Below, piece by piece: positions 3,482 through 63,239 of a stretch of DNA of 64,000 bases. This DNA comes from Bacteroides sp. ET71 (lineage in GTDB: Bacteria; Bacteroidota; Bacteroidia; Bacteroidales; Bacteroidaceae): contig NZ_JAMBLS010000017.1 in the NCBI RefSeq assembly GCF_023336905.1, positions 1 to 64,000 of the forward strand, given 5' to 3'. Under the pieces are notes generated by a model. That model worked only from the letters and a program-made list of their open reading frames with translations, was not told the DNA's origin and made no database searches. The translations under genes and the position numbers were made by a program. The stretch's first letter is position 1; each line of letters begins with the position of its first letter.

Positions 3482-3565
3482 ATCTTTAGCCTAAAGATGT
3501 TCATCTCTAGGCTAGAGTTCTATATCTCTAACCTAAAGATCTACATCTTCAGGCTGAAGATGTAG
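3482..3565. repeat. Array A: 4 x 21-bp palindromic tandem repeat
   Basis: Four contiguous 21-bp units (3482, 3503, 3524, 3545) plus a decayed fifth at 3566-3586. Cores are ATCTTTAGCCTAAAGAT, CTCTAGGCTAGAG, CTCTAACCTAAAG and ATCTTCAGGCTGAAGAT: arm sequences differ between units but largely remain complementary within a unit. It fills the 355-base divergent gap between the nif3-like promoter and the aguA promoter. The rest of the gap (3344-3481) shows nothing I recognise. Confidence 0.9.
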
Positions 3566-3609
3566 ATTTTCTAAACTCTTGTATCCTTTGAATAAGCATA
3601 TCAAATAAC

Positions 3610-3640
3610 TTTGCGATGTGGTTAAGACAGTGTATCTTTG
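3610..3640 (+). promoter_or_regulatory. Promoter of aguA-aguB
   Basis: TTTG at 3610-3613, then 19 bases, then TATCTTTG at 3633-3640: the full Bacteroidota -33/-7 pattern. A TTG inside the -7 element opens a longer reading frame that cannot be translated from this promoter. Confidence 0.72.
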
Positions 3641-3667
3641 CACCATCATAATAAAAAGAATAGTTAT

Positions 3668-4789
3668 ATGGGATATTTCGTAGGATTACCATTAGGAGGA
3701 ACAACCGGAGAAAAAGAATATCAAGTACGTTTTGACAAAAATGTAGGATACCAAATAGAAACGTGTGCTCCGTTGTTGCCGGCAGAATGGGCTTTGCAAA
3801 GTGGCGTACAACTAACGTGGCCGCATGAAGATACCGATTGGACCGGAATGTTGGATGAAGTGGAAGCATGCTTTATTACTATTGCCCGCGAGATTGCTTC
3901 ACGCGAACGCCTCTTAGTGGTGCATCCGCAGCCGGAAGAAATAGAAAGACAGCTTATAAAAGCCGGTGTACAGATGTCTAATGTACGTTTTGCGGCCTGT
4001 CCCACGAACGATACTTGGGCACGAGATCATGGAGCCATTACCATGCTGGATACCAATGGCCCATGTTTGTTGGACTTTACGTTTAACGGTTGGGGGTTGA
4101 AGTTTGCTGCCGATAAAGATAATCTTATTACGCGCCATCTGATACAATCAGGAGCCTTACACGGAGAATATTTAAATCGGTTAGGCTTCGTGTTAGAAGG
4201 AGGTTCTATTGAAAGCGATGGTATGGGGACATTACTCACAACCAGCCGTTGTCTGCTTTCACCTAATAGAAACGGACAGATGAATCAGGCAGAAATAGAA
4301 GAATACCTGTGTTCTACTTTCCATTTACAACGGATTTTATGGTTGAATCATGGTTTTTTGGCAGGAGATGACACCGATAGTCATATAGATACATTGGCGC
4401 GTTTTTGTGATCCGGAAAGCATCGCTTATGTCTGTTGCGACAACCCTTCAGACGAACATTATGAAGAATTGGCACAAATGGAAAAAGAATTAACCGCCAT
4501 GCGAACTATTGACGGCAAACCTTATCGCCTGTTTCCTCTGCCTCTGCCAGATCCTATCCTGATAAATGGTGAACGTTTACCTGCCACTTATGCAAATTTT
4601 CTTATTTTGAATGATGCGGTGCTTTATCCAACATACAATCAACCGCAAAAAGATCAAGAAGCAGGTATCATGTTACAGAAAGCTTTTCCTAAACATGATA
4701 TTGTAGGAATAAATTGCTTACCGCTCATCCGGCAACATGGTTCTCTACACTGCGTAACAATGCAATATCCTATGGGAGTTATCAAATAA
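3668..4789 (+). CDS. aguA: Agmatine deiminase (peptidyl-arginine deiminase family)
   Basis: Hydrolyses agmatine to N-carbamoylputrescine. Family signatures: LTWPHEDTDW, TNDTWARDHGAI, the LEGGSIESDGMGTLLTT loop, GDDTDSHIDTLARF with catalytic His/Asp, and the C-terminal active-site Cys in HGSLHCVTMQYP. 373 residues from the ATG at 3668, 28 bases after the -7 element. The first 36 residues (MGYFVGLPLGGTTGEKEY and on) precede the point where most homologues begin (LLPAEWALQSG), so either this clade has an extension or translation starts at an in-frame TTG near 3770. Followed by aguB at 31 bases, which performs the next step. Confidence 0.93.
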   Translation: MGYFVGLPLGGTTGEKEYQVRFDKNVGYQIETCAPLLPAEWALQSGVQLTWPHEDTDWTGMLDEVEACFITIAREIASRERLLVVHPQPEEIERQLIKAGVQMSNVRFAACPTNDTWARDHGAITMLDTNGPCLLDFTFNGWGLKFAADKDNLITRHLIQSGALHGEYLNRLGFVLEGGSIESDGMGTLLTTSRCLLSPNRNGQMNQAEIEEYLCSTFHLQRILWLNHGFLAGDDTDSHIDTLARFCDPESIAYVCCDNPSDEHYEELAQMEKELTAMRTIDGKPYRLFPLPLPDPILINGERLPATYANFLILNDAVLYPTYNQPQKDQEAGIMLQKAFPKHDIVGINCLPLIRQHGSLHCVTMQYPMGVIK

Positions 4790-4820
4790 AAAGTAACATC
4801 TAACCAATAATATAACTTTT

Positions 4821-60239: not shown

Positions 60240-60251
60240 TTCACTGAAGAC

Positions 60252-61949
60252 ATGAATCCACGTATCAAATATTCACGTTCCGAAAAGACTTATTTGGCTG
60301 GTAATATTTATCCAGATCTCCGTGTAGCCATGCGGTGCGTCGAACAGGTCCCTAGCGTTTCGTTCAATGCCAACAATGAAAAAGTCTATACTCCAAATCC
60401 AAAGGTATATATATACGATACCAGTGGCCCCTATAGTGATCCAAACATTCCTATTGATCTTCAGAAAGGTTTGCCAAGGCTGCGAGAGCCATGGATTATT
60501 GCCCGTGGCGATGTAGAAAGATTGTCGGGAATAAGCTCTGAATATGGCCGCCAAAGACGTGATGACCCAACTCTCGATCATTTGCGCTTTGAACACATTA
60601 CTCTTCCGTTACGTGCTACGTCAGGGAAGCATTGTACTCAAATGTACTATGCTAAACAAGGCATTATTACACCTGAAATGGAATATGTTTCCATCCGTGA
60701 GAACATGAACTGTGCAGAATTGGGCATAGAAACTCACATAACTCCTGAATTTGTACGTCAGGAAATTGCTGCCGGACGTGCCCTTCTACCTGCCAATATC
60801 AATCATCCGGAAGCAGAGCCAATGATTATCGGACGCAATTTCTTGGTGAAGATTAATACAAACATCGGCAATTCAGCTACAACTTCAAGCATAGAAGAAG
60901 AAGTTGAGAAAGCGCTATGGAGCTGCAAATGGGGAGGTGATACGCTCATGGACCTATCTACCGGGGCAAACATACATGAAACCCGTGAATGGATTATCCG
61001 AAATTGTCCTGTTCCAGTAGGGACTGTCCCTATTTATCAAGCACTGGAAAAGGTCAATGGACGAGTGGAAGACCTTTGTTGGGAATTATATCGTGACACA
61101 CTCATCGAACAATGTGAACAAGGAGTCGATTATTTTACTATCCACGCCGGCATCCGCAAGCATAATGTGCATCTGGCAGACAACCGTCTATGCGGAATAG
61201 TCAGTCGTGGAGGTAGCATTATGAGCAAATGGTGCTTAACCCATAATCAGGAATCTTTCCTTTATGAGCATTTTGATGACATCTGTGACATATTAGCACA
61301 ATACGATACGGCTATTTCATTGGGCGACGGCTTACGTCCTGGTTGTATTCAAGATGCCAACGACGCAGCCCAATTTGCTGAATTGGACACGATGGGAGAA
61401 CTTGTCACTCGTGCTTGGGCCAAAGATGTCCAAGCATTCATTGAAGGCCCCGGCCATGTCCCCATGCATAAGATACGGGAAAACATGGAGCGTCAATTAG
61501 AGAAATGCCATGAAGCTCCTTTTTATACCTTAGGCCCCATTGTAACTGATATCGCACCAGGATATGACCACATCACGTCGGCTATCGGAGCAGCACAAAT
61601 CGGATGGTTGGGTACGGCAATGCTGTGTTATGTAACTCCTAAGGAGCATTTAGCTCTGCCTGACAAAGAAGATGTACGTACTGGTGTGGTAACGTACAAA
61701 ATTGCCGCACACGCTGCCGACCTGGCCAAAGGCCATCCCGGTGCGCAGGCACGCGACAATGCACTAAGCAAAGCCCGGTATGAGTTCCGATGGAAAGACC
61801 AATTCGATTTATCACTCGATTCAGAAAAAGCAATGGCCTATTTTCACGCAGGAAAGCATGTAGACGGTGAGTATTGCACCATGTGCGGCCCCAATTTCTG
61901 TGCTATGCGTCTGAGCAGAAGTATTAATCCACAAACCAAATCAGAATAG
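60252..61949 (+). CDS. thiC: Phosphomethylpyrimidine synthase ThiC
   Basis: 565-residue radical-SAM enzyme turning AIR into HMP phosphate. Seen: [10 protein letters not shown], the [15 protein letters not shown] stretch, [30 protein letters not shown] and the C-terminal [11 protein letters not shown] cluster (CxxCxxxxC) that binds 4Fe-4S. Starts 12 bases after thiG and ends 1 base before thiH. Confidence 0.97.
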
Positions 61950-61950
61950 T

Positions 61951-63090
61951 ATGTTTAGTGAAGAATTAGATAAAATAAGTTGGGATGACATTACAGCCCG
62001 TATCCAGGCAAAAACAGACAATGACGTACGCCGTGCTTTAGGCAAAGAACGTTGTGACCTCGAGGACTTCATGGCCCTGATATCACCTGCTGCTACGCCA
62101 TATTTGGAAACGATGGCACGTTTAAGCCGGCAATATACCTTGGAACGCTTCGGCAAAACGATATCCATGTTTATACCGCTTTATCTTACGAACTCATGTA
62201 CAAATTCGTGTGTATATTGTGGGTTCCATGCCAGTAATCCCATGAAACGGACAATATTGACAGAAGAAGAAATTGTGAATGAATACAAGGCCATTAAACG
62301 CCTCGCACCATTTGAGAACCTCTTGTTAGTAACAGGCGAGAATCCTGCCCGTGCCGGAGTTCCCTACATAGCACGTGCGCTGGATCTTGCCAAGCCTTAT
62401 TTCAGCAATTTGAAAATAGAAGTAATGCCACTCAGCGCTGAGGACTATAAAGAACTGACCTATCACGGGATGAATGGAGTTATCTGTTTCCAGGAAACTT
62501 ATAACCGGGCACATTACAATATTTACCATCCCCGAGGGATGAAATCGAACTTTGAGTGGCGGTTGAATGGATTCGACCGCATGGGCGAAGCCGGAGTCCA
62601 CAGCATAGGTATGGGAGTATTGATAGGATTGGAAAAAGAGTGGCGTACAGATATTACCATGATGGCAGCCCATCTTCGCTATCTTCAAAACCGGTATTGG
62701 AGGACGAAATACAGTGTAAACTTCCCCCGCATGCGCCCTTCCGAGAACGGAGGCTTCCAACCCAATGTAATAATGAGCGATCGAGAATTAGCTCAGACTA
62801 CTTTCGCCATGCGCATTTTTGACCACGATGTTGACATATCATACTCTACGCGTGAACCAGAATATATCCGCGACCATATGGCAACTCTGGGAGTCACGAC
62901 AATGAGTGCGGAAAGCAAAACAGAACCAGGCGGATATTATACTTATCCACAAGCGTTGGAACAATTCCATGTCAGCGACGAACGTACGGCCATGGAAGTG
63001 GAAAAAGCTTTACGCATTATGGGACGTGAACCTGTCTGGAAAGATTGGGATGCCTCATTCGACCAGCCGAAAACCTCTCAAGCCGTGTAA
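61951..63090 (+). CDS. thiH: 2-iminoacetate synthase ThiH
   Basis: 379-residue radical-SAM enzyme cleaving tyrosine to give dehydroglycine for the thiazole. Radical-SAM cluster CTNSCVYC, plus BATS domain around residues 220-330. Its presence rather than ThiO fits an anaerobe. After its stop, 280 bases precede thiF, so thiF may be partly separate. Confidence 0.96.
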   Translation: MFSEELDKISWDDITARIQAKTDNDVRRALGKERCDLEDFMALISPAATPYLETMARLSRQYTLERFGKTISMFIPLYLTNSCTNSCVYCGFHASNPMKRTILTEEEIVNEYKAIKRLAPFENLLLVTGENPARAGVPYIARALDLAKPYFSNLKIEVMPLSAEDYKELTYHGMNGVICFQETYNRAHYNIYHPRGMKSNFEWRLNGFDRMGEAGVHSIGMGVLIGLEKEWRTDITMMAAHLRYLQNRYWRTKYSVNFPRMRPSENGGFQPNVIMSDRELAQTTFAMRIFDHDVDISYSTREPEYIRDHMATLGVTTMSAESKTEPGGYYTYPQALEQFHVSDERTAMEVEKALRIMGREPVWKDWDASFDQPKTSQAV

Positions 63091-63198
63091 TAAATAGCAT
63101 GTGTAGTAAATAGAAAAAGACATAAGGACCAATGAATATCCGTACCAAGCCAGCCTCATGTCCTGAGCATGTCACTATCGAGTCATGGAGAAGACGAA

Positions 63199-63239
63199 GA
63201 ATCATGTACGATGATTCTGGGAATCATATACGATGATTA
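63199..63239. repeat. Array J: 2 x 22-bp palindromic repeat between thiH and thiF
   Basis: GAATCATGTACGATGATTC at 63199 and GAATCATATACGATGATTA at 63221, 22 bp apart; each has GAATCAT/ATGATTC arms around 5 bases. TATCATTGTACGA at 63253 may be a decayed third copy. Confidence 0.85.

Follow-up and report, generated by a model that had tools for sequence, protein, structure and literature searches.

Tandem Arrays of 21–24-bp Units beside HU-like Genes in a Gut Bacteroides Genome

The window considered here, a stretch of 64,000 nucleotides from Bacteroides sp. ET71, carries in many of its intergenic gaps short tandem arrays of similar unit length and different sequence. Two questions arise: whether such arrays form a class beyond chance, and whether any protein goes with them.

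Arrays within the Window

Nine arrays were confirmed both by TRF and by eye (3482, 10519, 21895, 38946, 39155, 48282, 48426, 52846, and 56305). Among the short arrays of the preliminary description, two 22-bp units at 63199 were recovered by eye, and the one placed at 18575 is absent from the TRF output even at score 30. The repeat at 45630–45825 is an 8-bp simple repeat (24 = 3x8) of a different class. In TRF and by eye the units are contiguous, with no unique spacers between repeats, so that the arrays are indeed not CRISPR. The features are as follows, a strand applying only to the gene.

3482..3561, array, 21 bp x3.8, palindromic units (TRF and sequence), with CTTTAG/CTAAAG, CTCTAG/CTAGAG, and CTTCAG/CTGAAG in different units
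10519..10661, array, 22 bp x6.5 (TRF)
21895..21963, array, 21 bp x2.7-3 (TRF)
38946..39204, array, 22/23 bp, CACGCGTG core, ~10 units (TRF, in parts 38946, 22 x7.8, and 39155, 23 x2.2); final units inverted (by eye)
48282..48391, array, 23 bp x4.8 (TRF, with a higher score for 46 x2.4), core TATYYCACRTGRRATA (by eye), with the HU+DUF4469 gene below 146 bp downstream
48426..48489, array, 23 bp x2.8 (TRF), between array 48282 and the HU-like gene
48538..49299, + strand, HU-like gene with an HU DNA-binding domain (PF14848, 39.6 bits) followed by an Ig-like DUF4469 domain (PF14734, 55.2 bits) (Pfam)
52846..52935, array, 22 bp x4.1 (TRF), in the gap between two genes, presumably carA and carB
56305..56394, array, 23 bp x3.9, core TTGAAACGTTCAA (TRF), 7 bp past the stop codon of what we take to be glmS
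63199..63238, array, two 22-bp units, AATCATRTACGATGATT core (by eye)

Period, Abundance, and Symmetry

The sample comprised 1.25 Mb, or 34% of the window's genome (G000), a gut Bacteroides. Half of its intergenic tandem arrays (80/160) have a unit of 21–24 bp with the mode at 22, and none of the 160 has a unit of 18–20 or 25–43 bp; unit lengths thus cluster, as had been proposed, rather than spread evenly. At loci of relatives the period is slightly less sharp (7/96 arrays at 18–20 bp). In 605 gaps of the genome 153 arrays were found, as compared with 21 in total over five first-order Markov shuffles. A lag of 22 bp occurs 154 times per 10,000 windows versus 1.3 in shuffled gaps, with 3.2 and 2.2 per 10,000 windows at lags of 20 and 25 bp. 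The 22-bp peak is missing from coding DNA of the sample (3/66 arrays), in agreement with the earlier view of the arrays as non-coding. The 21–24-bp arrays are therefore real and far beyond chance.

It had also been proposed that most arrays share one palindromic design. Palindromes are enriched, since 24/80 arrays are palindromic at p<=0.05 by one measure and 17/80 at p<0.05 by a second, with about 4 expected in each case, and these same numbers make the generalization to most arrays too strong.

HU-like Genes beside the Arrays

A named protein class goes with the arrays, namely HU-like paralogs. An array lies in an adjacent gap in 29/31 non-canonical HU-like genes versus 150/992 other genes (p 5e-21; genes called by a simple hexamer model) and in 0/2 canonical HU genes. 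In one of the 29 (on contig C3), the array is 802 bp away; C12:49609, the twelfth PF14848 match over the cut-off, is excluded from the count as its gene was not called. The linkage persists on matching for gap size: an array lies <300 bp upstream in 15/20 HU-HIG genes versus 61/382 genes (p 3e-8) and <=60 bp after the stop codon in 8/11 DUF4469 genes versus 41/399 genes (p 3e-6). In other Bacteroides species, an array accompanies 15/29 PF18291 loci (hand count) and 17/28 loci from the PF14848 search against a background of 78/1057 genes in 80 loci (p 9e-10 and 3e-12, respectively), and is absent at 25/57 HU loci. The scripted total is 31/57 against 32/57 by the other count, L301, L333, and L351 being omitted as own or duplicate, and at L292, L330, and L355 (three loci at most) the script may have taken a neighbouring gene.

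HU-like proteins comprise two classes. The short class is HU-HIG (PF18291), and the long class combines HU-DNA_bdg with DUF4469 (PF14848+PF14734). HU_rel / HU-HIG proteins were reportedly treated by Burroughs et al. in 2017, and the short proteins here belong to the same families (TIGR01201, PF18291): PF18291 is over its cut-off in 6/7 and TIGR01201 in 3/5 of the proteins scanned, the long protein of the window (48538–49299) falling under the PF18291 cut-off (13.9 vs 26.2 bits). When the sequence of one HIG protein was searched against the PDB, nothing was found at E<=0.01, and a structure of the window's HU-like protein predicted from an alignment of 3 sequences was too poor for use (mean pLDDT 32.5).

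The classes differ in where the array lies and in its period. Short HU-HIG genes have it mostly upstream with a unit mostly of 22 bp (n=38; upstream in 31, 22 bp in 27), and HU+DUF4469 genes mostly 1–35 bp past the stop codon with a unit mostly of 23 bp (n=21; downstream in 16, 23 bp in 14). The difference in period, for own and relatives' genes with one array per gene, has p 6e-8; the first listed array per gene was used, so that C9:4216 enters by its upstream simple repeat and not by its post-stop array. Most HU-like proteins also share a C-terminal tail, DDSGQGTFG, which is present in 20/31 across both architectures with varied codons and, within the 1.25 Mb, was seen in 5 proteins, HU-like only. 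The tail and period/side tests share the relatives' gene set without L301, L333, and L351.

These positions bear on two readings of the arrays that involve no HU binding. In the first, the arrays would be operators of other regulators controlling the HU-like genes. The upstream arrays of short HU genes, 14–237 bp ahead of the start (31 genes), would suit operators; most DUF4469-type arrays lie past the stop codon, contrary to this reading, which also needs many regulators for many different array sequences, and no other shared neighbour was noticed (neighbours were viewed unsystematically). It is very improbable.

In the second, the arrays would act as RNA, i.e., as hairpins repeated in tandem within leaders or at 3′ ends. 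DUF4469-type arrays mostly directly follow stop codons. Moreover, 5/17 genes with an upstream array have a promoter-like TANNTTTG box on the 5′ side of the array, at <=150 bp, and no such box separates array and start; the array may thus be transcribed. In general, the box occurs within 150 bp upstream of 95/199 genes. Some array cores, however, are palindromes without a loop. Selection on RNA hairpins was rejected, as sense-strand mismatches in the arms are not biased toward G-U (7 G-U vs 15 A-C). We regard the RNA reading as improbable.

Array Families and Array Change

The arrays were first described as locus-private and not dispersed, with sequences unrelated between loci. This is wrong, as 45/92 arrays match elsewhere in the sampled 34% of the genome (a count that takes in simple-sequence and GC-rich families), and many belong to multi-locus families in which the sequence is kept. 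Six arrays of the window either have a match next to an HU-like gene or adjoin the window's own such gene (48538–49299). The 3482 family recurs upstream of the HU-HIG gene G000:C37:19711 (E 9e-6) and at C2:239560 (E 3e-12), that of 21895 upstream of C21:58681 (E 2e-6), and that of 63199 upstream of C9:60500 (E 4e-5) and C9:72218 (E 5e-4), all HU-HIG genes. The 52846 family is found upstream of the HU-HIG gene C6:51204 (E 3e-20) and at C1:258431; the orthologous gap of L046 holds it too (E 4e-31). The 38946 family includes a 22-bp x10.8 array 94 bp after the HU-HIG gene C41:5594 (E 4e-62), and the 48282 family recurs at C1:8029 (E 2e-18), with L035 carrying it in the orthologous gap. Array 10519 has homologs at C18:5799–5900 and C11:35559–35660, with no PF18291 or PF14848 match on either contig. 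Array 48426 is without a match elsewhere in the 34% sample, and TTGAANNNTTCAACC of array 56305 has no further exact copy in the genome, so that no partner gene was found for the latter.

Of the HU-adjacent arrays, 18/28 match elsewhere in the sample (14/19, a further 4/8 of the DUF4469 type, and 0/1, the array beside C2:228438) and none with reversed letters. The idea that remote copies are confined to HU-adjacent arrays was rejected by a random-set control: HU-adjacent arrays match 26/85 other arrays (three of them probably only by way of an adjacent array sharing their gap), leaving 59/85 without an HU partner in this test, and random sets of other arrays match 25% of the rest on average.

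Comparison of orthologous gaps, suggested in the preliminary description, shows that arrays expand and contract. Array 38946 has ~3 units in G046 versus ~10 in the window, and in two clean cases the array-less genome holds 1 unit versus ~4 and 4.7. A different 22-bp family occupies the 38946 orthologous gap in L035 and, in G018 (L191), the region upstream of the same gene. In four palindromic orthologous arrays, differing positions number 30/216 in arms, 18/60 in loops, and 6/52 in spacers, with no clear sign of selection on the arms.

Such changes in copy number, the preference of arrays for gaps, and the enrichment of palindromes would be expected of neutral minisatellites, arising by replication slippage on short hairpins and kept in gaps without counter-selection. 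But slippage should spread unit lengths instead of confining them to 21–24 bp, and it predicts neither HU linkage nor class-specific position. This explanation is already strained, and we give it little credence.

More serious, if still unlikely, is the possibility that the arrays are selfish, non-autonomous REP/MITE-like elements of the BrickBuilt type, with HU genes as mere neighbours or passengers. Entire arrays are found again at unlinked loci, the order of units and the units at the ends being conserved (C1:29782 vs C1:158494; C3:14589 vs C5:93256), the three loci of the GAATCATTGCC family all have 4 units, and some pairs share a few flanking bases, e.g., GGCCGCATAT beside window 48282 and C1:8029. 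On the other side, the Y1/RAYT transposase PF01797 has 0 matches in the genome (E<=0.001; G000 is 99.6% complete). Nine aligned pairs have no evident long leader, tail, or inverted ends, clear homology ending at the units or ~10–20 bp past them, and some pairs share ~10 flanking bases; three loci of one family likewise have no evident leader or tail. Among filled/empty pairs, none was seen to have a target duplication, the two clean array-less cases each holding one unit. Finally, passengers would not predict an HU linkage with class-specific side and period.

A Proposed Model of HU-like Proteins as Array Readers

HU proteins are regarded as largely unspecific packagers. The reading that we prefer, with a probability of roughly 0.6, is that each HU-like paralog reads its own array. 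The genome encodes ~30 divergent HU/IHF-type proteins, nearly all linked to an array of 21–24-bp units whose sequence mostly differs from protein to protein. According to this model, a homodimer would bind each unit, which is often palindromic, and the spacing of two helical turns would place all dimers on one face to form a nucleoprotein array that is bent or wrapped. Autoregulation may come from the array next to the gene of its own reader, copies of the same array at a few remote gaps may serve as address sites, and the DDSGQGTFG tail may dock a common partner.

As for what the readers would recognize, reading of bases is favoured because the array of an HU gene and its remote arrays share sequence. 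At the same time, there is room left for the reading of symmetry and phase instead of bases, as HU-like proteins of 69–80% identity can have unrelated arrays. Array similarity follows protein identity only above ~60% (8/18 pairs score >=30), and Mantel tests of protein versus array distance were not significant, with rho 0.12, p 0.12 (short class) and rho -0.09, p 0.68 (long class). A specificity segment in close paralogs was considered and rejected: no hypervariable segment stands out among 69–79% identical proteins with different arrays.

An extended form of the model is more tentative and may well be incorrect. Here, ~30 orthogonal address systems would operate at once on Bacteroides chromosomes, each HU-like paralog recognizing its own 21–24-bp array near its gene as well as a few distant copies. 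Most readers would recruit one common partner via DDSGQGTFG, so that a set of remote sites would be gathered, insulated, or silenced by an array-sequence code.

Taken together, the linkage and the copies of many arrays elsewhere suggest that this Bacteroides genome holds ~30 parallel protein-and-address pairs, a system undescribed as far as searched. No tandem-array association of HU-HIG proteins was found in the literature searched, and we know of no such link, nor of binding sites for the HU-like proteins, for which the model supplies predicted ones. If correct, it would unite a poorly understood protein expansion and unexplained minisatellites in one system and might account for BrickBuilt in P. 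gingivalis. The DNA-array/reader pairs would also make up a naturally occurring set of orthogonal candidates.

Comparison with Known Systems

In REP/RAYT systems, protein paralogs have adjacent cognate palindromic repeats with dispersed copies, one family per protein. The arrays resemble them in a paralog family with adjacent, often palindromic repeats and dispersed copies. However, they are tandem with a 21–24-bp period, the linked protein is an HU-family member (none of the seven scanned has a transposase domain), and REP/RAYT was rejected as G000 has no Y1 gene (PF01797). Plasmid iterons are tandem units of about two helical turns that lie on one face of the DNA and adjoin the gene of the Rep protein that binds them. 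Tandem units of such length also lie here beside an HU-like gene, whose product would bind them; unlike iterons, the arrays are chromosomal, with many families, no replication gene, and often palindromic units.

The closest published relative is BrickBuilt of Porphyromonas gingivalis, described as a MITE (PMC4596501). It consists of tandem intergenic 23-nt units without spacers at 19 loci, with 1 to 22.8 units (PMC4596501), an arrangement shared by the ~23-nt units here. BrickBuilt is one sequence family, and part of a leader and/or tail accompanies it at 16/19 loci (PMC4596501). Here there are many families with few loci each, and no leader or tail is evident in the nine aligned pairs and the three loci of one family. 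One of its loci, BrickBuilt_14 (84 nt), lies between PGN_0871 and PGN_0872 and adjoins the latter, a PF00216 DNA-binding protein gene (PMC4596501, Table 1). An HU-family neighbour, which BrickBuilt has once and outside its published definition, is a feature of the arrays here too (beside 29/31 HU-like genes), and the passages concerned do not draw a link to HU genes (PMC4596501).

Beyond the Genus

Outside the genus, the array class looks rarer, because 16 stretches totalling 304 kb, for each of which the gene-calling model was trained separately, hold 3 intergenic arrays of comparable size, one of them at a stretch edge. Phage contigs gave 8 pattern matches, none of them a relative. HU relatives occur in phage (5) and plasmid (3) records, two plasmid stretches being examined by annotation only, and all are under 60% identity.

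Tandem arrays in the intergenic gaps

Arrays were studied in a sample of 1.25 Mb (34%) of the 3.63-Mb genome of Bacteroides sp. ET71, the window included, in which genes were called with a purpose-built hexamer model and intergenic arrays were counted at a score of at least 45. This threshold yielded 160 intergenic arrays, with units of 21 bp (7 arrays), 22 bp (49), 23 bp (17), 24 bp (7), and 44–46 bp (12), and not one of the 160 has a unit of 18–20 or 25–43 bp. Coding DNA of the sample bears 66 arrays, only three with a 22-bp unit. The arrays clearly exceed the chance level (153 observed versus 21 summed over five shuffles of the gaps), and in a lag profile, which needs no threshold, the signal is highest at 22 bp, where it is about 120-fold that of shuffled sequence. 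The peak is also at 22 bp in 80 loci of relatives (1.45 Mb; 21 of 96 intergenic arrays, with 7 of the 96 having units of 18–20 bp). Outside the genus, 304 kb taken across its order, class, and phylum hold three intergenic arrays of the 21–24-bp size. TRF recovered the arrays that the preliminary description had placed in the window, apart from one at 18575, which was not found, and one at 45630, which is an 8-bp simple repeat. The array observation is real and stronger than that description had recognized.

Palindromic units are enriched without being the rule: 24 of 80 arrays reach p ≤ 0.05, where about four are expected (mean palindrome score 1.59 versus 1.28), and a second palindrome measure picks out 17 of the 80. 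Folding of the arrays as RNA is unsupported, because the arm mismatches comprise 7 sense G-U versus 15 sense A-C.

Association with HU-like genes

Profile searches of the ET71 genome gave 23 matches to PF18291 (HU-HIG, reportedly the subject of a 2017 study by Burroughs et al.) and 16 to PF14848 (HU DNA-binding), the latter overlapping in part with the PF18291 genes. Two of the 23 are canonical HU by their PF00216 scores (104.7 and 92.6 bits; at most 31.9 for the others). When the flanks of the 31 non-canonical HU-like genes were inspected, an array adjoined 29, including one on contig C3 at a distance of 802 bp, versus a baseline of 150/992 other genes; neither of the two canonical HU genes has an adjacent array. 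Gap-matched controls agree with this linkage. In other genomes of the genus, arrays adjoin 15/29 PF18291 loci (a hand count of the top match per genome) and 17/28 loci from the PF14848 search, versus 78/1057 genes.

The side and the period depend on gene type. Of 20 short HIG genes, 15 have an array less than 300 bp upstream, and of 11 long DUF4469 genes, 8 have one no more than 60 bp past the stop. With relatives included, 31 of 38 short-type arrays lie upstream, mostly with a 22-bp unit, and 16 of 21 long-type arrays lie downstream, with a unit mostly of 23 bp. Linkage, side, and period are the strong evidence for the HU connection. The arrays are best seen as putative address sites for a large set of HU-like proteins, a binding step that we infer.

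An acidic C-terminal tail, SGQGTFG or a one-letter variant, is borne by 20 of the 31 HU-like proteins of both architectures (11 short, 9 long). The codons of the tail vary, so the protein, not the DNA, is the conserved level. Only five proteins in the sample bear the tail, and all five are HU-like. Most of the relatives' proteins examined lack this tail, and a few bear variants such as GSFG. The shared tail suggests a common partner for the tailed HU-like proteins in ET71.

Sharing of array families between sites

The arrays had been called private to their loci, which is wrong, since matching sequence exists for 45 of 92 at other places of the sample and for 10 of 92 in relatives, counts that take in simple-sequence and GC-rich families. 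Among the HU-adjacent arrays, 14/19 have at least one remote match in the sample, as do 4/8 further DUF4469-type arrays.

Arrays of the window (start positions) and their partner families
3482: sequence match to the array of an HU-like gene on contig C37
10519: two additional copies, whose contigs gave no match to PF18291 or PF14848
21895: sequence match to the array of an HU-like gene on C21
38946: sequence match to the array of an HU-like gene on C41
48282: adjoins the window's own HU+DUF4469 gene (48538–49299); second copy at C1:8029
52846: sequence match to the array of the HU-like gene at C6:51204
56305: second copy not found by exact-pattern search
63199: sequence match to the array of the HU-like gene at C9:60500

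A stronger claim, that such sharing is peculiar to HU-adjacent arrays, is rejected: the HU set matches 31% (26/85) of the other arrays, and sets drawn at random from those other arrays match an average of 25% of the remainder, so family sharing is general.

A GC-rich 22-bp family (CCGTGTGCGGAAGAGGC-like) occupies many gaps of contigs C3, C4, and C5; its arrays at C3:75823 and C4:39083 are matched by no HU-adjacent array. The same is true of window positions 45630–45825, where a short middle separates two arrays with an 8-bp unit (ATGAGTTT / AACTCATA) that face each other; sequence of a similar kind occurs at five other sample sites. Directly 3′ of the HU+DUF4469 gene, at 49349–49492, lies a long inverted repeat with arms starting GTGTGTCAAAATATAAAATGGCACGCAGATGAC, which is MITE-like or terminator-like.

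HU protein pairs more than 60% identical have high array similarity in 8/18 cases, and below 60% identity similarity is near background (15/569 pairs score at least 30). Some pairs at 69–80% identity have unrelated arrays, with protein differences scattered along the length; therefore, specificity may change fast, or the array sequence may not be the thing read.

Turnover of arrays

In a close relative, G046 (DNA identity 83.5–94.6% over eleven syntenic stretches), the whole array or part of it is present in 11/11 cases compared, and a wider comparison of 16 arrays gave identities of 0.61 to 1.0 across the aligned part. Copy number differs: the window array at 38946 has about ten units versus three in G046, and two G046 arrays of about four units each correspond to one single unit in ET71. 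In L035, a relative's locus, the gap upstream of the window gene at 39406 is occupied by an unrelated 22-bp family, as is the region upstream of the counterpart gene in another genome, G018. Between two close genomes (C2:192637 versus L222:9159), the four units all differ at their centres in a concerted manner, with the unit-specific flanks retained; the paralogous arrays C1:29782 and C1:158494 likewise show concerted change in several units, the order of units being retained.

Comparison with known systems

REP/RAYT and iterons are similar in architecture to the HU-array pairing of ET71, although this genome gave no match to the RAYT (Y1) transposase, PF01797. BrickBuilt of Porphyromonas gingivalis is described as a minisatellite of 23-nt units with 19 loci, one of which adjoins PGN_0872, a PF00216 DNA-binding protein (PMC4596501); nucleoid-associated proteins are listed among the multicopy genes of this species in another account (PMC5771137). 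No report of an HU-like gene paired with a tandem array was found in a literature search that covered some of the subscription journals.

HU-family genes also occur on two Bacteroides records annotated as plasmids. In L359, such a gene adjoins an N-acetylmuramoyl-L-alanine amidase gene, with a smalltalk gene beyond, and in L360, one gene separates the HU-family and amidase genes.
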